Below are positions 19,711 to 46,023 of a DNA stretch of 48,432 nucleotides, one piece after another; the first letter of the stretch is position 1, and every line of letters starts with the position of its first letter. A program made the position numbers and the translations under genes. This DNA comes from a virus. The notes beneath the pieces are model-generated. The model saw only the letters and a program-made list of their open reading frames with translations, was not told the origin of the DNA and ran no database searches. The stretch covers positions 1-48,432 of the IMG/VR virus record IMGVR_UViG_3300031801_000949; one strand, given 5' to 3'.

Positions 19711-20429
19711 TATACTTTTCTTCCACTAGCTGGAGTTTCAAATTGGTAATCAAAAACTTCTATATCTTTCCTAAACAAAGCCCCAACAAAATCTCTTAAA
19801 TCATCATCATAATAATCTGAATAGTGAATATGACCAGAATAATTTTTTCTTGGCAATTGTGGTATCGGATGTATTTTTAAATACTTTAACATTCTATTCC
19901 AGTCCTCAGACAAAGTTTCAAATCTTAATATTTTATCAACCAAAAAGTTATCATCCAAATCTGTAATAATATCCAACTGATTAATAAAATCAATATGCTC
20001 CCTTAAAAATCCTTCTGTTCTCTTAGTTTTAGTGGGCTTCTTCCCTTCTGCTAAATCAAACAATACTTTATTATTTTTAACAGCTTTAATTTCAGAATTC
20101 AGAATCCATTTTTTAAATCCCCAAATAGTTCCATCTGGTCCAAAAACCTTCCCAGCAGACATATTATGCATAAACAAATCATTTTCTTTTTTTCTAAAAT
20201 GATACAAAGAAACCATTCTATCCCAAGGATTTCTTACAACTGTAAATTTATAATAAGTCTTAAAAATTCCAGGGTCAGTATATTTTTTTATATCAATTCC
20301 AAGATTTGTTGTTCTAGAAAAATTAAAGGGATGCATCTTAGTATCTATCTCTAAAATTCTCCTTATACTTACTCCTGCATTTTTAGGAATATGAAAGAAT
20401 ATTAACGGATATAATGTACTCTCATTCAT
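19710..20429 (-). CDS. Sulfotransferase family protein
   Basis: 239 residues. The PAPS 5'-phosphosulfate loop is LIFFHIPKNAGVSIRR (residues 9-24), and the 3'-phosphate motif is FTVVRNPWDRMVSLYHF (about residues 62-78), the layout of Golgi-type carbohydrate sulfotransferases. It should transfer sulfate from host-made PAPS to a glycan or another island product. No PAPS synthase is in the window. It overlaps the next island genes at both ends. Confidence 0.8.
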   Translation of the reverse strand: MNESTLYPLIFFHIPKNAGVSIRRILEIDTKMHPFNFSRTTNLGIDIKKYTDPGIFKTYYKFTVVRNPWDRMVSLYHFRKKENDLFMHNMSAGKVFGPDGTIWGFKKWILNSEIKAVKNNKVLFDLAEGKKPTKTKRTEGFLREHIDFINQLDIITDLDDNFLVDKILRFETLSEDWNRMLKYLKIHPIPQLPRKNYSGHIHYSDYYDDDLRDFVGALFRKDIEVFDYQFETPASGRKV

Positions 20430-22113
20430 TCAAGATACCTTCTACTGTTTTAACATCTTCTGGAATATCTACTGCATGTATATTACCATAAACTTCAACC
20501 ATTTTTACTGAGTAACCCATCTCCAAAAATCTTAATATTTCTATATCCTCTTCCCACTCTAATTTAGATTTTCCATTTTTAAAACCATACTCTAAATAAT
20601 CTTCTAATTCTTTTTTATTAAAAGCATAAATACAAACTTGCCTATATCCTTTATTAGAATTTGCATATTTTGTTCCTGGAATTGCGCTTCGAGACATATA
20701 CATTAAATTATTATCATCACCATATACTACTTTTGGTATATTTCTATCTTCTATATATTGAAATGAATCCAATCTAGACATACAATTTATAATAAAATCT
20801 GGATACATTTTCTTCTTTTCAATTACTTCCAAAATATCTTTAGGATTCAATAAAGGTTCATCTCCTTGAACATTAATAATAATATCACTGTCTATCTCCA
20901 TAGCTGCTTCTGCTACTCTATCTGTTCCTGTCAAACAAGAATCAGAAGTTAAAATTACTTTGTAATCATAAGCATCCACAACCTTTGCTATTCTATCATC
21001 TTCAGTAGCAATATAAACGTTTTCTTTTCCTACTGCACCTTTAGCAATATCTGCAACTCTAATCACCATTGGAATACCATCTATTTCAACTATAGGTTTT
21101 CCAGGAAACCGACTAGATTTATACCTAGCAGGAATAACTACCGAAACCTTTTTCTTATCTTTTCCTTTTATCTCTGACATATCAAAAGAATCCTTTTTAG
21201 TAATACCTTTTAATATATCTTGTATTTGTAAATCAGTTAAGTTCTTAGATTCTAAAATTTGACAATAAGTTGGATGTATTTCCTTCAAACCCGTAAGCAT
21301 ATAATTATGATTCCATCCCCAACCATAATCAATTTTCATTTTAGCAAATTTTCTATCTATTAGATCAATTAATTTATTATAATTAGTTCCAAAACACATA
21401 AGTAATTGTTCCAATCTAACATTACCAGCTCCTCTACCCATACCTGTTATAGTACCATCAATGTAATCTAAACCCATATCTATAGCCATAATAGAATTAG
21501 GAAATGCCAGACCCATATTATTATGAGAATGAAATCCAAACTGCTTTTCTGAACAATCCTTATAAACTTTAATATAATTATATAATTTATCTGCTGTCAA
21601 AGATCCAAAAGAATCAGCTAAGTATAAAACATCAGCTTTACTCTCATTCATCCTTTTCACACACTCTTTTAGAGTTTCTAAATCTAATAAACTAGCTCTC
21701 ATTAAATTTATAGTAGTAATATAACCATTTGAATTTAAAAACTTAACCATTTTAATAGCATCATCTAATGTACTAATTGTACAAGCAACCCTACACATAT
21801 CAAAGATAGATTCATTTGATGGTTTTATTACATCCTTTATTATTTTATAATTTAAACTACCATTAAAAATAAAATCTTTTACATCGACCATAAATGCTAG
21901 TTTAGCTTTTGGTTTAAATCCTAAAACATTTTGAATAAAATGATCATTACACTTTCTATACTTACCACCTTTTAGTGGTGATTTATATCCTATTTCAATA
22001 ACATCTATACTTGCTTCTTCCAAAGCATGTACTATCTCTCTAACTAACTTATCATCATATTCCCAATTAGTATAATAACCACCATCTCTTAATGTACAAT
22101 CTAATATTTTCAT
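20422..22113 (-). CDS. Fusion: HMGL-like (DRE-TIM) aldolase + CMP-KDO synthetase domain
   Basis: 563 residues in two domains. Residues 1 to about 315 are a DRE-TIM metallolyase of the 4-hydroxy-2-oxovalerate aldolase type: ILDCTLRDGGYYTNW (metal Asp at 5, RD at 9-10), VIEIGY, and the metal histidines in GFHSHNN (195, 197), plus GMGRGAGN. A Lys-rich linker (about 316-322) leads to a KdsB domain: VSVVIPARYKSSRFPGKPIV, TEDDRIAKVV, INVQGDEPLL, MYMSRSAIPG and the C-terminal EDIEILRFLEMG. The first half could condense a pyruvate-type donor with an aldehyde, the second would activate the ulosonic acid with CTP. Product unknown; the channelled pathway is inference. Confidence 0.85.
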   Translation of the reverse strand: MKILDCTLRDGGYYTNWEYDDKLVREIVHALEEASIDVIEIGYKSPLKGGKYRKCNDHFIQNVLGFKPKAKLAFMVDVKDFIFNGSLNYKIIKDVIKPSNESIFDMCRVACTISTLDDAIKMVKFLNSNGYITTINLMRASLLDLETLKECVKRMNESKADVLYLADSFGSLTADKLYNYIKVYKDCSEKQFGFHSHNNMGLAFPNSIMAIDMGLDYIDGTITGMGRGAGNVRLEQLLMCFGTNYNKLIDLIDRKFAKMKIDYGWGWNHNYMLTGLKEIHPTYCQILESKNLTDLQIQDILKGITKKDSFDMSEIKGKDKKKVSVVIPARYKSSRFPGKPIVEIDGIPMVIRVADIAKGAVGKENVYIATEDDRIAKVVDAYDYKVILTSDSCLTGTDRVAEAAMEIDSDIIINVQGDEPLLNPKDILEVIEKKKMYPDFIINCMSRLDSFQYIEDRNIPKVVYGDDNNLMYMSRSAIPGTKYANSNKGYRQVCIYAFNKKELEDYLEYGFKNGKSKLEWEEDIEILRFLEMGYSVKMVEVYGNIHAVDIPEDVKTVEGILNE

Positions 22114-26623: not shown

Positions 26624-27940
26624 TTAATCCTTAGTTAATTTTGGTAATTTTATACCACTTTCTTGTGTTTTATTTGATCCTGGCAAATTTAATTTTACTT
26701 CCTCACTAAATTCTGGAAGATATTTATCTAATATATTTTCAAACTTTTTAGTCATAGCTTCCAATGAAAATTTACCCCGATTAACTATAGCTTGTTTTTT
26801 AGCATTTAATCTATAATCTTTATAATTATTTCTTACATCTTTTAGAACTTTAGAAGAGTACTGATAGTTAACTGTACTCCATTGCGATCCCTCAACATAT
26901 ATATCCTCTGGAAATGCAGCTGATTTAACATCTGTAAGATCTGCTGGCAACAAAACAGATAATTTATCACTCAAAAAATCTAATGGGCCACTCCAAGAAG
27001 TTGTGATAACTGGTTTCTGTGATATTGATGCTTCCAACAATGGTCTTCCAAATCCCTCACCATGTGTAAAAGAAATGTGTGCTTTTACTTTTCCATGATT
27101 ATATAATTCATTCATTTGGTTATCAGTTAAATCTCCATGTAATAAATATACATTTGGTAAATCTCCTTTAACTGTACTTTTCATATGATTAATTTTATTA
27201 AAAAGTTCTTCTCTATCTAAAATACAAGGAGTTGCAGAACTTGTTTTCATAATCAATGCTGGTTTATTTTTTTGATTTTTAAAAGTTTCAAAAAATGTTT
27301 TAACTAGCATATAACAATCTTTTCTATCCTCTCCTATATTTCCCTGTAACCAATGTCCTACAAATAGAAAACAAAAATCTTCTTTAATCTCTTTAAATTC
27401 TTCTTTTATATCTATATCTGAAGTTTTTACTTTCTTAAAAATATTAGTATCCGCTCCTTCAAACAATACTTCTATAGGTTTTGTTGATTTTACTTCACCT
27501 ACCCTTTTTTTAGTTCTATCATCTATTTGATCATACACTACTTCCTCTAAAACTTCTTTTGAAAAAGTAGAAGGTACTATATTTAAATCCATTCTATTCA
27601 ATCCCTCGATCCAAGAATGAGGACATGCACTTGTTTCTATTCCAGCAGTTATCCCTATATTATATTTACCCATAGCTGCAAACTCATTTGGAACTACAAT
27701 GTGAATGTGAACATCGGGTTGTCTCTCAAGGTTTGGAGTCTTTAATAACCTTTCTAAGATGGGTTTATCATTTTCATCATTTTCATTCAACGCATTCCAC
27801 GGTGTACTCCCCCATCTTACAGGATAAATTCTAACATCAAATCTATCCATAGCAATTAATGAACGAACTATATCTCTTGCATGCGCACCATACCCAGAAC
27901 GTGTTACTACTGGTGCTGTTACTAATACTATTGGTTTCAT
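26624..27940 (-). CDS. GT-B glycosyltransferase (group 1/GT4-like)
   Basis: 438 residues. N-terminal Rossmann domain: VLVTAPVVTRSGYGAHARDI (donor-side Gly loop). C-terminal domain: FLFVGHWLQGNIGEDRKDCY, VYLLHGDLTDNQMNELYNHG and the E-x7-E type motif ISFTHGEGFGRPLLEASISQ, which binds the nucleotide sugar. It forms a pair with the similar gene at 27953. Acceptor unknown. Confidence 0.88.
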   Translation of the reverse strand: MKPIVLVTAPVVTRSGYGAHARDIVRSLIAMDRFDVRIYPVRWGSTPWNALNENDENDKPILERLLKTPNLERQPDVHIHIVVPNEFAAMGKYNIGITAGIETSACPHSWIEGLNRMDLNIVPSTFSKEVLEEVVYDQIDDRTKKRVGEVKSTKPIEVLFEGADTNIFKKVKTSDIDIKEEFKEIKEDFCFLFVGHWLQGNIGEDRKDCYMLVKTFFETFKNQKNKPALIMKTSSATPCILDREELFNKINHMKSTVKGDLPNVYLLHGDLTDNQMNELYNHGKVKAHISFTHGEGFGRPLLEASISQKPVITTSWSGPLDFLSDKLSVLLPADLTDVKSAAFPEDIYVEGSQWSTVNYQYSSKVLKDVRNNYKDYRLNAKKQAIVNRGKFSLEAMTKKFENILDKYLPEFSEEVKLNLPGSNKTQESGIKLPKLTKD

Positions 27941-27952
27941 ATATATACCCTT

Positions 27953-29392
27953 CTATACTTTATAGATACTAAATTGTTTTCTTGGTTGCCACTTATCAAA
28001 CATTGTATTCATATGATCAGTAAAGTTTTGACCCATCATTTTAGCAGTCATCATAGCATCTTTACCTTTTACAAAATCTGTTCCTAACTCTCCACACCTT
28101 CTTCTTTCATCATCTCCCACATCATACCATTCTTTTATTTTATAAGCAACTTCTTCCCATCTACATCTATCATCAAAAATATAAGGTGTAGGTGGTGAAC
28201 CAACTAAAGCACGGGTTCTAGGCCAGACTGGTTTTACCCACTCACCATAAGTTAAATCTTTATTATCTTCCCATTTTTCATAATCATGTAAACTATGTAT
28301 CCAACTATAATCTTTAGCAGTTACATGCTTTCCCTTATATTTAAATCCACACTGATCTTGTAATCCACCTGTAACGTTCACAATAATTGGTGTTCCTGCC
28401 ATAAGTGATTCACAAGTACCTAAACCAAATCCCTCATTAGATGCAATATTAATTGTTACATCTGCAATATTATTTAAATGATTCATTTTTTGATTATCTA
28501 ACTTATCAACTGAAAAATGGTAATTATATTCTGAAGCTAAAGCGCTTACTACTGCAGGCAAATCTGTTCCATTTTCATCAACTGGTTGTGTATGCAATAA
28601 AAATGCACATTTTTCTGCTTCTTCTTTCGGAAGCATATCACAAAAAGTTTTAAATGCTAATATAAGATCTCCTGGCATTTTTCTACGAATGTTTCTATTA
28701 TTATAAAATAAAATAAAATCATAATCACTACCCTCAAGAACGTGTTTTTTAAAATTTAACATATCATTGTATTCTGTATGCAGTTCATCTATAGGATAAA
28801 AATGTTCCTCATTAATACCATGGGGAACATATGTATTATCCCATTCTGTTCTGGGTTTCTTCTGTGCTACATTATTTACAATATTAACAGTTTGTTTAGA
28901 TATATTCATAATCAAATCAGATGACTCGTAAAAAAATTGATTATACATTGGATAAGGTAAGTCATCCCAAATATTATAATAGAAGATAGGAATTTTAGTT
29001 CTAATCTCATGTTCCATTTGATATAACCATACCCAAAATCTTGGATCTGTATAATGTAAAATAGCATCAGGGTTTTCCATATCCATTATTTCACGTAATA
29101 ACTCTTGATTACCATAACCATTAGTAGGATAAATTTTCAAACTAGCATCAGTTACTCCAGTTTCCTCTCTAACAGAATCATTCATATCAACTATTTTTCC
29201 ATGTTCTGGATGTGTTATTGCGCCCGCAAGCTGTACCCAATCGAAGTTTTCTAAAGTTCCAAGAACTATTTCTCTAGACATAGTTCCGACACCAGAAGAC
29301 ATTCGTAAATCATCTGATAATAGTAATATCTTTTTCTTTTCTCTTTTAGGTGTAGTTTTTTTTAATTTCGGTAATTTAATTTCACTAGCCAT
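27953..29392 (-). CDS. GT-B glycosyltransferase (group 1/GT4-like)
   Basis: 479 residues. Start: KKILLLSDDLRMSSGVGTMS (Gly loop); then HYTDPRFWVWLYQME and TYVPHGINEEHFYP. The C-terminal domain has FYNNRNIRRKMPGDLILAF, FLLHTQPVDENGTDL and the E-x7-E region ASNEGFGLGTCESLMAGTPI. It is the first gene of the glycan island in transcription order, 16 bases after a small gene. Confidence 0.88.
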   Translation of the reverse strand: MASEIKLPKLKKTTPKREKKKILLLSDDLRMSSGVGTMSREIVLGTLENFDWVQLAGAITHPEHGKIVDMNDSVREETGVTDASLKIYPTNGYGNQELLREIMDMENPDAILHYTDPRFWVWLYQMEHEIRTKIPIFYYNIWDDLPYPMYNQFFYESSDLIMNISKQTVNIVNNVAQKKPRTEWDNTYVPHGINEEHFYPIDELHTEYNDMLNFKKHVLEGSDYDFILFYNNRNIRRKMPGDLILAFKTFCDMLPKEEAEKCAFLLHTQPVDENGTDLPAVVSALASEYNYHFSVDKLDNQKMNHLNNIADVTINIASNEGFGLGTCESLMAGTPIIVNVTGGLQDQCGFKYKGKHVTAKDYSWIHSLHDYEKWEDNKDLTYGEWVKPVWPRTRALVGSPPTPYIFDDRCRWEEVAYKIKEWYDVGDDERRRCGELGTDFVKGKDAMMTAKMMGQNFTDHMNTMFDKWQPRKQFSIYKV

Positions 29393-32538: not shown

Positions 32539-33449
32539 TTTATAACTCCTAATAATTCTATTATCATTGCCATAGCATTTATTTCTTTATCTATAACTTG
32601 ACCATCTGAAAGTTCATATTTTGCAATAATCAAAATACATTCTGCTATATGACCTTTACCATAAGTATCAACTTCATCATAAAGTAATCTAAATAAATCT
32701 GCAAAATCCCTCACCTGATTGTCAGCTAGAAGTTGCCTAATGTTTTTAAATGCATTCTTTTTATCTTCTATTTTTAATATTTCCAATAACTTCAGTTTAT
32801 AATCATTTTGAATGATACTAATCGTATCTAATTTTAACTGTAAATTAACTACATTTCTTTGAGCTGAATTAATTGTTCTACGAATATCAGGATAATTAGA
32901 ATCTATCAATATTTTCAAATCTCGTAATTCATAACTAATTTCTTCCTCTTCCAAAATCTCATTTAATCTTTGAGCTACCTCTGTTTTAGATGGTGGTATT
33001 ATTTCGAATAACTGACACCTACTTTGAATTGGATCAATAATTCTCTCAACAAAATTACAAGTTAAAATAAACCTACAATGTCTACTAAAGGTTTCCATTA
33101 GATTCCGCAATGCCGCTTGTGCATTAGGAGTTATATAATCACATTCATCGAGAATAATTATTTTAAAATCTTTAAAACCAATAGTTGAAGCGAAGTTCTT
33201 AACTTTAGTTCTAACTGTATCTACATTATTTTCATCTGATGCGTTAATATATAAATGATCACATTCTATATTATTAATAAGTAATTTAGCGAGAGTGGTC
33301 TTACCTGTACCAGCCTTACCGTACAGTAAAAGATGTGGTAAGTCGCCACTCTCTAGGTAAACCCTGACCTTACTTTTGAGATGATCATTCCCAATATAAG
33401 TATCAAGTGTGGTAGGCCGATACTTTTCTACCCATAAACTATTATTCAT
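32535..33449 (-). CDS. 44: Clamp loader ATPase gp44
   Basis: 304 residues from ATG 33449 (AGGGA upstream, 8-base overlap); MNNSLWVEKYRPTTLDTYIG is the usual beginning of this family. Walker A GKAGTGKTT near residue 44, Walker B IIILDECDYIT, sensor 1 ILTCN and the SRC motif PIQSRCQLFEI. It forms the AAA+ part of the T4 clamp loader that opens gp45 at primer ends. Confidence 0.95.
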   Translation of the reverse strand: MNNSLWVEKYRPTTLDTYIGNDHLKSKVRVYLESGDLPHLLLYGKAGTGKTTLAKLLINNIECDHLYINASDENNVDTVRTKVKNFASTIGFKDFKIIILDECDYITPNAQAALRNLMETFSRHCRFILTCNFVERIIDPIQSRCQLFEIIPPSKTEVAQRLNEILEEEEISYELRDLKILIDSNYPDIRRTINSAQRNVVNLQLKLDTISIIQNDYKLKLLEILKIEDKKNAFKNIRQLLADNQVRDFADLFRLLYDEVDTYGKGHIAECILIIAKYELSDGQVIDKEINAMAMIIELLGVIK

Positions 33450-34215
33450 CAAAAATCCCTTTTGTAACTTCAACCTTTGTAATTTCTGCTTTATAATTTG
33501 TATCCTTTGGATACGGAAATAATTTATGCTTTATGTTACTCATAAATAGTTTCTTTTCTTTCTTACTTCCAAGAAAATATATATACCTATGTTTTTCTGC
33601 TTCTTTCTTTAACCAAAAAGTATGACCTATCTTCTTTTTAAGATGTTCAACATTACTACTTCCCCATCTACCATAAACATTTCTAGAGTGCATCCACTCA
33701 TCTTCTTCATTTAATTTTAAAGAAAAGGTTGGCGCCATTTGAAATGCACCACTTCCTTGATATAACCAATTAGTAGCTTGATATACAAATCCAGAATGAT
33801 TTTGATCTGGATCTGCATAAGAAACTAATACTCTTATTTTAGGTGCGTGTTTCTTTAACCATTTAAACGATTGAGATATAACATACGATTCAATATTTTT
33901 TCCATATCCTTCTTTTATACACAATCTAGTCAACTCTAAAATATTTTTATTTCCTATGATATCATCTTTAAAAATAGATCCTACTACTCTTCTACCTTTT
34001 GGAAAACCATAAGTTATTGTACCTATCAATTCTTCTTCAGTGTCATCAAAAAATTTGTGCTCTCTATCTGTTTTATAAAAAACACCCAAAGAATATCTAC
34101 AAGCAGATAATTTACCACTATAATGATATTTCTTTACTAATCTACTAGCTAATAGCTTTGGAATTTTTTCTATCCAAACACGAGAAGCGTCAACATACTT
34201 CTCTTCTTTTTCCAT
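33442..34215 (-). CDS. Mom-like GNAT protein, copy 1
   Basis: 257 residues. Motifs: VKKYHYSG (His31-Tyr32), ILELTRLCI (Arg97), and VSYADPDQNHSGFVYQATNW (Asp135, Tyr145). From memory, phage Mu Mom needs a His-Tyr pair, an Arg, and Asp139/Tyr149; the Asp-Tyr distance of ten residues is the same here. Mom makes N6-carbamoylmethyl-type adenine in Mu DNA. The gene is inserted between gp45 and gp44 with overlaps of 1 and 8 bases. It has a longer C-terminus than the other two copies. Activity is inferred. Confidence 0.7.
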   Translation of the reverse strand: MEKEEKYVDASRVWIEKIPKLLASRLVKKYHYSGKLSACRYSLGVFYKTDREHKFFDDTEEELIGTITYGFPKGRRVVGSIFKDDIIGNKNILELTRLCIKEGYGKNIESYVISQSFKWLKKHAPKIRVLVSYADPDQNHSGFVYQATNWLYQGSGAFQMAPTFSLKLNEEDEWMHSRNVYGRWGSSNVEHLKKKIGHTFWLKKEAEKHRYIYFLGSKKEKKLFMSNIKHKLFPYPKDTNYKAEITKVEVTKGIFDE

Positions 34216-41790: not shown

Positions 41791-42405
41791 TTAATTATAC
41801 TTTTTTTTTAATTTTCTATCTAAATAATAAACAAAAATATGCTTTGGTGGTAACTCCTCAGTCCAAATATCCTTATCATTACTTTTAATTCTTCTTCTAA
41901 TTTCATCACCTTTAGGACACTTTTTAGTTAACATTCTTTGATGAAATCTTTCACCATCAACCATCAACGCTTTTGCTCCACTCGTCATACCTTTATAATT
42001 AAAATTAGTAGCTTTATATATTGTTCCTTCATGTCCTTGAGCAGTATCTGCAAATGAAATTATAACTCTATATTTAGTATGTTCTTTTAACCATCTAAGT
42101 GTTTTACCAATAAAATAACTTTCCGTATTTTTAGGTGTATCATCAATACAACACAACCTATTTAATTCTAAAACAATATCAGGATTATCTTCACAGTACT
42201 TTTTACTCACATCTGGCATAGCAGGCTTTCCATATATCATAGCGCCTATCATCCTGGGTAACCCAAAAGAGCCGTCAGGTGAAGTTAAATTAAAACAATG
42301 TTCAATATGTAACCCCCTTACACTACTTGAATAGTGCCATTTTTCTATAAATGGTTTAACGGTTTTGTAGTTAATTTGTTCAATTTGGAAATCGGTTACT
42401 TTCAC
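41791..42405 (-). CDS. Mom-like GNAT protein, copy 3
   Basis: 204 residues starting with GTG 42405 that overlaps the upstream TGA (GTGA). Motifs: EKWHYSSSV (His24-Tyr25), LELNRLCCIDDTPKNTESYF (Arg83), IISFADTAQGHEGTIYKATN (Asp120, Tyr130). It is clearly paralogous to copy 2 (same DDTP-NTESYFIG block). It lies beside the DUF4338-like gene and the endonuclease VII-like gene. Confidence 0.72.
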   Translation of the reverse strand: MKVTDFQIEQINYKTVKPFIEKWHYSSSVRGLHIEHCFNLTSPDGSFGLPRMIGAMIYGKPAMPDVSKKYCEDNPDIVLELNRLCCIDDTPKNTESYFIGKTLRWLKEHTKYRVIISFADTAQGHEGTIYKATNFNYKGMTSGAKALMVDGERFHQRMLTKKCPKGDEIRRRIKSNDKDIWTEELPPKHIFVYYLDRKLKKKYN

Positions 42406-43595
42406 CTACCAACTTCTCCAAGATATTTTTCTTTAGTTTCTTCCCACGAAGCATTTAAAACATCTGCATAAAATAACTTCTCAGGCTTTATTCTATTTTG
42501 ATCTAATAACTTTGTATATCTTCTGATAGCTTTTGGTTTCCACCATTTATTAATATAATCAACATCTTCTATATACTTCTTTTTCATAACCAAATCTTCT
42601 TCACCAATTTCTTTTCGTAAAAATTCCTTACCATTTTCATAAATGTTAGCAAAGTAAATTCCTCTTTGAAATCCATGCTCATAATTTTTAAGTTTAATAC
42701 CAAATTCATCATAAATCATCTTTATAATTTTTTGTTTTATTCCTGTAACAGGACCAGATATACCTTCTTTTTGAGTAGTTTCTCTCACATATCTCTCTGC
42801 CCTATTTTCTTTAATCCAATCATGCCAAGTATCATAAGTAGCATCATCTGGTTTCAAACTAATTCTACCCTTTGATTCACCAAGAGTTTTCCAATGTGGA
42901 ATTCCATTATACATTGAATGAATTCCATAAAGAGAAGTAGTTGATATCCCAACTAATGTTTGATCATAAAGTTCTTTCCATAAATCTCTAACTACTGAAG
43001 AAGTAACCATAGTAGCAACCAACTTACCACCCAAAAAATTATAACCTAACGGTTGTACACAACATATAGTAGTTCCTATAGAAGTATAATTTAATTTACC
43101 ATCTTTAAATTTATTATCTTTAGTCCAACCAATAAACTTATCTCTAGCTCCCAATGAAGTAACATCTGAACCTAAACAAATTAATCCTAAAACTTTATTT
43201 GTATTTTTATCTTTAACATAAAACTTTAAATTTCTACCAGGATTAGCACTAAATTCCATAGTATGAATTAATCTTCTCAATAAAGTCCATCTTTCAACTT
43301 CTTTAGTATTTCCTTGTTCTACAAATTCTACAACTGGATTTAATAACTCTATTTCAGAAATTGTTTGTTCTTTATTATAAATGTTTTTTGGCACCCAAAG
43401 TACCTTCTCCAATACATCAAACTTAGATCCTTTTTTCATCATAGAATAAAAATCTTTATTAAACTCTTCCCATTTTTTATAAAGAGTAATCTCCTGTACG
43501 GACATTCCTTTTAAAAAATTAAGATTGTCTATAAACTTCTTTTTCTCTTTTTCGTAATCGAATTTTAATTCATCGAAAAAATCTTCGAAAGACAT
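42402..43595 (-). CDS. DUF4338 (DruA)-like protein
   Basis: 397 residues. The middle, GRNLKFYVKDKNTNKVLGLI, then SLGARDKFIGWTKDNK, TTICCVQPLGYNFLGGKLVA and a Ser/Thr-Thr-Ser-Leu-Tyr-Gly segment, follows the layout of DUF4338, the domain of the Druantia protein DruA ('lG.i..S......RD.yIGW'). N-terminal coiled coil and basic C-terminal region. It overlaps copy 3 of the Mom-like genes by 4 bases. In a phage it may take part in DNA modification or nuclease action. The family call is moderate. Confidence 0.5.
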   Translation of the reverse strand: MSFEDFFDELKFDYEKEKKKFIDNLNFLKGMSVQEITLYKKWEEFNKDFYSMMKKGSKFDVLEKVLWVPKNIYNKEQTISEIELLNPVVEFVEQGNTKEVERWTLLRRLIHTMEFSANPGRNLKFYVKDKNTNKVLGLICLGSDVTSLGARDKFIGWTKDNKFKDGKLNYTSIGTTICCVQPLGYNFLGGKLVATMVTSSVVRDLWKELYDQTLVGISTTSLYGIHSMYNGIPHWKTLGESKGRISLKPDDATYDTWHDWIKENRAERYVRETTQKEGISGPVTGIKQKIIKMIYDEFGIKLKNYEHGFQRGIYFANIYENGKEFLRKEIGEEDLVMKKKYIEDVDYINKWWKPKAIRRYTKLLDQNRIKPEKLFYADVLNASWEETKEKYLGEVGR

Positions 43596-44178: not shown

Positions 44179-44190
44179 GTACTTTTTTTG

Positions 44191-44610
44191 TGGAGCTGGT
44201 GGGAATCGAACCCACGTCCAGTCTGCTTTTAATAATTAGTCATTCACAACTTAGTTTGGTTTCCAAATCGGTAGTCCACCAACAAACCCACCATACCCAT
44301 TTTACTCAGAATGGTTTAACTGAAAGATTTGTTTGAATTCTAATCTATGAACGAATGATCAGTCTAACTTATTTTATGCTCAGGTGTTAGACAACCCAAG
44401 AACTTATGCGTAAGCGTAAGTTGGTTGATAATCTGAAACAGGTTCAACGAATCCGTCGGACACCATTTCTGATGCGGCTAAATGCCAATCAATTACCAAC
44501 CCTTGTAGCGATTTATCGCTATTTGAGTTTGTGAGTTTTTTATAGCGAGATCTACTCAATCTCCGTTGCACTAACTTATCAAATAACATCTGTCGAAACC
44601 GATCAGCCCC
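44191..44610 (-). ncRNA. ssrA: tmRNA (ssrA), one-piece, with non-canonical tag
   Basis: The 5' end reads GGGGCTGATCGGTTTCGACA (44610 down) and the 3' end GTGGGTTCGATTCCCAC then CAGCTCC and discriminator A (44191). GGGGCTG pairs with CAGCTCC with G3-U, the alanyl-tRNA synthetase identity pair. The CCA is not fully encoded. A helix ATAAGTTAGT/ACTAATTAT joins the two ends. The tag frame ends VSDYQPTYAYA-TAA (stop 44406-44404) inside a helix CAACC..AACTTA / TAAGTT..GGGTTG. A resume codon GCA at 44475 follows TAGCC, like TAGTC-GCA in E. coli, giving a tag of about 23 residues. The tag ends in YAYA, not LAA. Confidence 0.9.
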
Positions 44611-44614
44611 ATAT

Positions 44615-44770
44615 TTAATATTCATCAATATCCACATCCTTCTCATATTCATTGAAAGGATTATCCAATTCTGTTCTTAATACTTCTAACACTTGTTCTA
44701 CAATTTTCCAATCTTCTTCTTCAATCGCATCTCTTAATAAGCTTACTATATTATCCAAATCTATCTTCAT
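44615..44770 (-). CDS. Small acidic protein (51 aa)
   Basis: ATG 44770 behind ATGGAG; starts MKIDLDNIVSLLRDAIEEED and ends with an acidic stretch EYEKDVDIDEY. Mostly one or two amphipathic helices. Its stop lies four bases before the 5' end of the tmRNA, so the tmRNA is probably cut from the same transcript. Function unknown. Confidence 0.6.
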   Translation of the reverse strand: MKIDLDNIVSLLRDAIEEEDWKIVEQVLEVLRTELDNPFNEYEKDVDIDEY

Positions 44771-44814: not shown

Positions 44815-46023
44815 CTAAGCCATTAAATGTGGTAATGCTTCTACTTGACCTGCTCTTGTAACTTCTATTAATTCTACTTTAGAATGAAACTCAGATAAGT
44901 TGTTAGCACCAACATAACTAAAAGCACTACGAATTCCCTCTTGTATATCTTTAAGGATTCTCTTGACTTTCCCTTTATATGGAATGGCTTTGTGATTTCC
45001 TTCAACATTTTTATTATTACCTCTAGATTTTTTAGAATCTAATGAAGCAGAACCTCTGTATTTTTTAAATAACTTTTCGTTAGGCCACTCACCTATCTTT
45101 TCAATTTCCCCTGGACTTTCTTTAGTACCTGATAAAAGGGAGCCCAACATAACCGAGTCAGCCCCACAAGCAAGTCCTTTACACACATCACCAATATTGC
45201 GAATACCACCATCAGCAATAACGGGAGTGTTATAAGTATCAGCAACGGCGACACAATCAATGATAGCAGACACCGTAGGGATTCCGACACCCGTTCTAAT
45301 TCTCGTTTCACATAAGCTTCCATTTCCGATTCCAACTCTAAGTCCATCTGCTCCTTTTTCACATAAGTATTTAGTCGCTTCTCCTGTTGCAACTGAGCCA
45401 GCAATAACTTCGATTTGTTCCAATCTGGTTTTGATTTTTTCAATTGCTTCTCCTACAAGTTTATGATGTCCATGTGCTACATCTATAAGTAAAACATTAC
45501 ATCCGTTCATTACTAATTCTTGTGCTCTTTCTAAATAATCTCCAGTAACTCCTACAGCTGCACATCTTGGTCTTTTTTTCCACACCTCATCATCTGATAA
45601 TATATGTTCTCGCCATCCTAATCTTTCATGTAAGTCTTCAAAATCAGATTTTTCTGGTGGGTGTGTCCAATGTTTTATACTATCCCACCATTCATCCCAT
45701 ACTTTATCTAAAGTTTTTTCTTCTTCGTTATCATTACCACTCAATGGTGTAAAATAACTATCCCATTCATAATGTAATGATTTCATCATACGAGCTTGTT
45801 TTTCAATACTCTGAAATCTATGTATGACACCAACACCACCCCAATCCATCATTTCCTTTGCCATATCTAATTCAGTTACAGTATCCATTGGTGATGAAAC
45901 TATTGGAATAGTGAGTTCTGTATTCTTTGTAAATCGCGTATTAAGTTTTACATTCTCACGAGATTCCAATTCTGAATATTTTGGAACTACATTTACATCA
46001 TCATAAGTTAATGCTCTTCTCAT
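44815..46023 (-). CDS. guaB: IMP dehydrogenase/GMP reductase family protein lacking CBS domains
   Basis: 402 residues. TIM-barrel features: [18 protein letters not shown] at the start, [50 protein letters not shown], the Cys loop [20 protein letters not shown] (Cys near 235), VIADGGIRN and [17 protein letters not shown], then a flap with [10 protein letters not shown]. Where IMPDH has two CBS domains there is instead a segment of about 70 residues rich in Trp and acidic residues (residues ~83-150). It should act in guanine nucleotide supply; IMPDH versus GMP reductase is not settled by eye. Confidence 0.85.

Follow-up and report, generated by a model that had tools for sequence, protein, structure and literature searches.

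The commonest tmRNA tag length is 10 aa according to a survey of 97,179 sequences, where 2-aa tags form an extremely short class (PMC11915505). In Escherichia coli tmRNA the spacer between pseudoknot PK1 and the resume codon is 11 nt, A86 at position −4 is essential, and pairing around the resume codon was proposed as the block in the A86C mutant (PMC2481249). The E. coli tag is bound in one part by SspB and at its C-terminus by ClpX (PMC8138137), whereas the extended tags of Mollicutes, whose cells have no ClpXP, are read by Lon (PMC3985003; PMC8138137). The locus compared here with these systems lies in a viral record of 48,432 nt (48.4 kb), IMGVR_UViG_3300031801_000949, the whole of which is called the window.

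44188–44610, minus strand: one-piece tmRNA gene (ssrA), 423 nt, from Rfam RF00023, ARAGORN and the acceptor read from the sequence.

A one-piece tmRNA was called on the minus strand by ARAGORN and by the RF00023 covariance model (bounds 44188/44190–44610), the latter scoring 87.7 bits (gathering score 47; E 8e-33). The original prediction, of a complete one-piece tmRNA with a G3-U pair, was thus borne out by both programs and by the acceptor sequence, and the covariance model that it had named as the check on the tRNA-like ends matched well above its cut-off. The acceptor stem has 7 bp (GGGGCUG/CAGCUCC) with the G3-U pair, which is kept in relatives whose acceptor is GGGCCCG/CGGGUCC. The 3′ end reads CACAA; CCA is not encoded, nor do the checked tRNAs of related phages encode it. 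The Rfam model finds a full mRNA domain, so the gene is not of the decoy type that consists of the tRNA-like domain (TLD) only. Against 50,697 phage records, distant blastn with the window tmRNA gave no match, and tblastn with a consensus-like tag gave chance matches only.

Viral contigs were searched by neighbour genes and patterns, giving 27 distinct YAYA-ending tmRNAs, 23 with long tags (36–42 aa) and four with short ones. A second scan, with the proximal motif as query, found at least 119 stretches, which brought the number of distinct long tags to at least 81; omission of one tag with a lost stop codon gave the 80-tag set, counted among the matches listed. At least 80 distinct related viral tags, 34–43 aa long, have the proximal motif SLxGL(V/E/D)IDW(H/Q)LA in common. 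Codons 7–13 are partly fixed in the 80-tag set because it was fetched partly with GGGTTGGNNATNGAYTGGCA; the 23-tag set was fetched without the proximal motif. In L150/L197 the stop codon after YAYA reads CAA and the frame of the long tag continues to NTRT (49 aa), perhaps as a stop-loss variant or an error. The short tags are GTQANLTYAYA (L053/L056), GTQFNYAYA (L064) and, twice, GNTANYAYA (L065/L071). All of them start at GGC after UUAAUU and end in YAYA, and they have PK1, spacer and resume GGC as in their long-tag kin, without the tag domain of about 27 codons.

44532–44563, minus strand: pseudoknot PK1 (S1 GAGAU/AUCUC, S2 UGAGU/ACUCA), from covariation in 17 distinct sequences.
44521–44531, minus strand: PK1-to-resume spacer, CAAACUCAAAU, 11 nt with A at −4, from relatives, the Rfam consensus and E. 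coli.
44518–44520, minus strand: resume codon AGC (GGC in most relatives), from PK1 spacing, A at −4 and the open frame.

In the 17 distinct sequences 100% of PK1 cells were paired, 5 of 10 pairs were changed on both sides and the covariation score was reached by 0 of 500 shuffles; across relatives a series in S2 leads from UGAGU/ACUCA via UGAGC/GUUCA to UGAAC/GUUCA. An earlier PK1 candidate (UCGCUAU/AUAGCGA) was rejected: it ran into the resume codon and failed to hold across relatives. The next in-frame G/AGC codon lies 11 nt past PK1 in the window and 10–12 nt past it in relatives, and the spacer of the RF00023 consensus is 11 nt too. A was present at −4 in 76 of 80 relatives, and in 80 of 80 when four tags were read from one codon earlier (among the matches listed). 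Placed by this comparison, the resume codon is AGC 44518–44520, 11 nt past PK1, and the tag has about 38 residues, close to four times the common length of 10. By its anatomy (TLD, G3-U, model score, PK1 spacing, A at −4 and constrained tag frame) the window gene is a standard-form tmRNA.

44407–44520, minus strand: tag frame of 38 codons, SDKSLQGLVIDWHLAASEMVSDGFVEPVSDYQPTYAYA, stop TAA at 44404–44406, from translation and from conservation and third-position bias in relatives.

The tag ends ...YQPTYAYA before the TAA at 44404–44406, as originally predicted. The length of about 23 residues given first in that prediction, with GCA 44475 as start, equals the ARAGORN call and did not stand; the alternative then offered, about 37 residues, was nearly exact, comparative evidence giving 38. 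Among codons 1–15 of the 23-tag set, changes at codon positions 1/2/3 numbered 27/19/63 (p 0.003), and I-D-W was invariant in 23 of 23. For codons 10–15 the numbers were 20/4/83 (p 0.003; 80 tags, among the matches listed). No in-frame stop occurred in the first 15 codons of any of the 80 tags listed, against 78/80 and 74/80 with stops in the other two frames. Long tags differ in length by whole codons only.

It is improbable that the tag begins at GCA 44475 and that the conserved upstream stretch is RNA structure positioning this codon. ARAGORN calls the tag from there (23 aa, ASEMVSDG...YAYA), the UUUAGCC just before it resembles the E. coli UAGUC motif, and A stands at −4 of this codon, codon 16 of the longer frame, in 60 of the 80 tags (among the matches listed); but the same position is C or T in 6 and G in 14 of those 80, against A in 80/80 at the upstream site. 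Moreover, GCA 44475 sits about 56 nt past PK1 rather than 11, codons 10–15 in front of it change mainly at third positions and never to stops (among the matches listed), and the ARAGORN start varies among the codons of homologous tags, once falling in another frame. Long phage tags are probably under-reported because ARAGORN misplaces their starts so inconsistently. A related huge phage of 484 kb (LR756508, 92434–92880, plus strand) likewise encodes a long tag of 36 aa, GVNNADYESAGFTAEDFAQMDGESLYHGSERKPAAV, which begins 11 nt past a PK1 (GGCGC/GCGCC, CAUAU/AUAUG); ARAGORN gives GRRKPLSW, in another frame.

That the frame merely belongs to an ordinary small ORF overlapping the tmRNA by chance is very improbable, even though an 82-aa ATG ORF (44404–44652) is listed here and similar ORFs span nine relatives (family F8). 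Seven relatives keep the frame although an in-frame stop precedes it by 7–13 codons and no start codon intervenes; in these the tag frame is therefore readable only by resumption, and an ordinary ORF is ruled out.

44507–44520, minus strand: hairpin AGCGA-UAAA-UCGCU starting on the resume codon, from 80 tags against synonymous recodings and from compensatory variants.
44493–44501, minus strand: 5′ strand of the tag-domain helix, GGUUGGUAA, codons 7–10, which pairs with 44423–44431 and is also in the minimum-free-energy fold.
44423–44431, minus strand: 3′ strand of the tag-domain helix, UUAUCAACC, covering the Y-Q-P codons plus one base in front, from covariation and the minimum-free-energy fold.

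The tag-coding RNA is folded. Among the matches listed, the 5-bp hairpin at the resume codon was formed by 78 of 80 tags, where synonymous recodings averaged 28 (maximum 39), and compensatory variants were found (GGTGA/TCACT, TCTAA-TTCG-TTAGA, GTTAA-TTCG-TTAGC and GCGAG/CTCGC). The codon for Ser4 is TCG in 76 of 80 tags (among the matches listed), against 3.8% of the Ser codons in the phage. Compensatory changes were likewise seen in the helix that joins codons 7–10 to the YQP region, position 8 of which was paired in 73 of 80 (shuffle maximum 56; among the matches listed). The tag-coding RNA of the window had a stability of −35.5 kcal/mol, compared with −23.3 ± 3.2 kcal/mol for synonymous recodings, and the family mean was z = −4.5 (among the matches listed). 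At the resume codon and just past it the RNA is thus paired, not unpaired as in the RF00023 consensus. Since an unpaired resume region is usual in the tmRNA family and not defining, the hairpin marks a variant and membership stands. Pairing of the resume codon in a hairpin might impede resumption, which counts against the explanation preferred below.

The conserved proximal part may serve the RNA instead of making a degron contact, with hairpin and helix timing the opening of the resume codon or stabilizing the molecule and the peptide a passenger. The covariation of both elements and the far better folding of the tag mRNA than of its recodings speak for this reading, which is nevertheless doubtful in view of the residues I-D-W-(H/Q)-L-A: these survive synonymous change and their conservation is unaccounted for by any pair tested. 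The conservation of G-L and Q-P is partly explained by pairing of their codons in the RNA, and because conservation is in part at the RNA level only the residues that pairing leaves unexplained (I-D-W-H-L-A) argue for a role of the peptide. Comparison of relatives, by which the tmRNA anatomy, PK1, resume codon and tag length were established, shows a double constraint on this frame, as peptide and as RNA.

The original prediction had taken YAYA as a departure from the ...AA tails of ClpXP-type tags. Its main argument is weakened, since a missing final Ala proved to be ordinary variation within the family: among the matches listed, about 80 long tags end in YAYA (32), YAYAA (30), YANA (5), HVYA (3), SYAA (3), YAYTA (3) or AFAA (2), with YAFA once, VYAS once and single others. 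An AA end was found in 35 of 81 relatives listed (30 YAYAA, 3 SYAA and 2 AFAA). Almost all long tags listed have a final Ala after an aromatic/Ala run, and the last residues drift within the family while the proximal 15 are fixed. Given this variation among relatives, YAYA counts as one Ala-ended tail among several, with no sharp switch from ...AA.

A tag of this kind might still spare or redirect its products, if ClpXP saw YAYA poorly and rescue occurred without destruction, or if Lon took over as in Mycoplasma. This is possible though unlikely. The tail of the window tag has no final AA, the sole well-studied long tags with a Y-A-F-A type end are those of Mycoplasma and Mesoplasma, which are degraded by Lon where ClpXP is absent (PMC3985003; PMC8138137), and one relative listed ends in YAFA. 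The AFA ending that is a feature of the Mycoplasma Lon type is absent from the window tag (YAYA) and is seen, among the 81 relatives listed, in that one YAFA. As 35 of the 81 relatives listed end in AA behind the same proximal motif, the tail is not consistently ClpXP-proof.

The explanation that we prefer, with slightly better than even confidence in it as a whole, is that this T4-like marine phage encodes a functional tmRNA of standard form. From general tmRNA biology we infer that it would be charged with alanine through G3-U and would enter stalled ribosomes with SmpB of the host; resumption at AGC 44518–44520 would then extend the stalled protein by Ala and 38 residues. The tag would probably be an extended degron, its degradation being expected on the same grounds, with the Ala/aromatic tail at the C-terminus (YAYA in the window tag, YAYAA in many related ones) engaged by a host AAA+ protease. 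The proximal motif SLxGL(V/E/D)IDW(H/Q)LA might, speculatively, make a second contact, with the protease or an adaptor, so that the tag would be recognized in two parts. The tag mRNA forms a compact domain, the resume-codon hairpin being followed by a helix that closes off mid-frame, and the ribosome would have to unwind it. No SmpB was found in the 30 phage records searched, which are mostly fragments, and ClpP-like matches, taken as possible head proteases, occurred in only three related phages, all without the long YAYA-type tag. More tentatively, and rather against the odds, the phage lineage may have added to its tmRNA a dual-coded module, some 27 codons long, in which SLxGLxIDWHLA recruits a specific host or phage factor to rescued proteins and the hairpin and helix control resumption, amounting to a regulated, phage-specific trans-translation.

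The window phage has a T4-type major capsid protein and a family-B DNA polymerase, the latter nearest to that of Microcystis phage Mel-JY01; its gp23 is nearest to that of uncultured huge phage LR756508, then Mel-JY01, then Flavobacterium phage immuto. A tmRNA above cut-off was found in LR756508 and none in Mel-JY01 or immuto. A Bacteroidota host, suggested by the gp23 neighbours, was not adopted because an SD-like motif stands at 18 of 41 genes against a background of 15%. Scanning of 84,980 species genomes for a host YAYA tag, which the original prediction had named as a refuting case (TAC-GCN-TAY-GCN-stop, this spacing only, other spacing or codons being possible) gave one match, in a Cloacimonadota genome; this was a chance downstream match within a tmRNA whose real tag is ANNEYQLAA, and sampled Cloacimonadota tags mostly end in ALAA.

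44615–44770, minus strand: small ORF for an acidic protein of 51 aa, which stops 4 nt short of the tmRNA 5′ end, from relatives; no Pfam family.

Relatives of this ORF, which matched no Pfam family, lie just upstream of the tmRNA at 11 of 27 loci. Also upstream is an IMP dehydrogenase/GMP reductase-like enzyme (44815–46023, minus), with relatives in 9 of 27 tmRNA neighbourhoods. Two Mom-family proteins (DNA modification; 33442–34215 and 41791–42405, minus) have strong Pfam matches, and a DruA-like protein of the Druantia defence family (42402–43595, minus; Pfam 9.7e-26) adjoins a Mom gene and lies two genes downstream of the tmRNA. HMGL-like and cytidylyltransferase domains are fused in a single protein (20422–22113, minus), two glycosyltransferase genes lie at 26624–29392, and a related tmRNA-bearing phage contig has a tRNA-SeC-type gene (L058, 281–374).

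Compared with the standard one-piece tmRNA (RF00023; E. coli ssrA), the window gene likewise has tRNA-like ends, G3-U, PK1, an 11-nt spacer, A at −4 and an Ala-ended tag. It differs in its tag of 38 rather than 10 aa, in a folded tag mRNA with a hairpin where the Rfam consensus is unpaired, and in a conserved proximal motif without known counterpart. No report of this long-tag family was found in the literature, most subscription papers being outside reach. Where usual tags have about 10 residues and an unpaired resume stretch, a large marine phage family here has structured tags of 34–43 residues with a fixed proximal motif, which lets two questions be put to the test: how a phage benefits from having a tmRNA of its own, and whether there is room in a tag for a further recognition element. 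The Lon-read tags of Mycoplasma and Mesoplasma are likewise extended, with an aromatic-Ala end and probably more than one contact; they are unrelated in sequence, shorter, and end in ...FA as opposed to YAYA, YAYAA or YANA. Those organisms are Mollicutes without ClpXP, and Lon-type membership is not claimed for the phage tag. The TLD-only decoy tmRNA of phage DS6A has no mRNA domain, whereas the window tmRNA has a full one. Two tmRNA-model matches above cut-off, of 112 nt (LR756508, 414804–414915, plus) and 137 nt (LR756511, 2250–2386, plus), have 7-bp acceptors with G3-U and occur in phages with a full tmRNA besides; they look like mini-tmRNAs of the DS6A kind, consisting of the tRNA-like domain only, and may be decoys. 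As in the mycobacteriophage Bxz1 group, Bacillus phage G and marine phage Melnitz, the window tmRNA is phage-carried; the Melnitz type is two-piece and of SAR11-type origin (PMC9004378), whereas that of the window is one-piece with a long structured tag.
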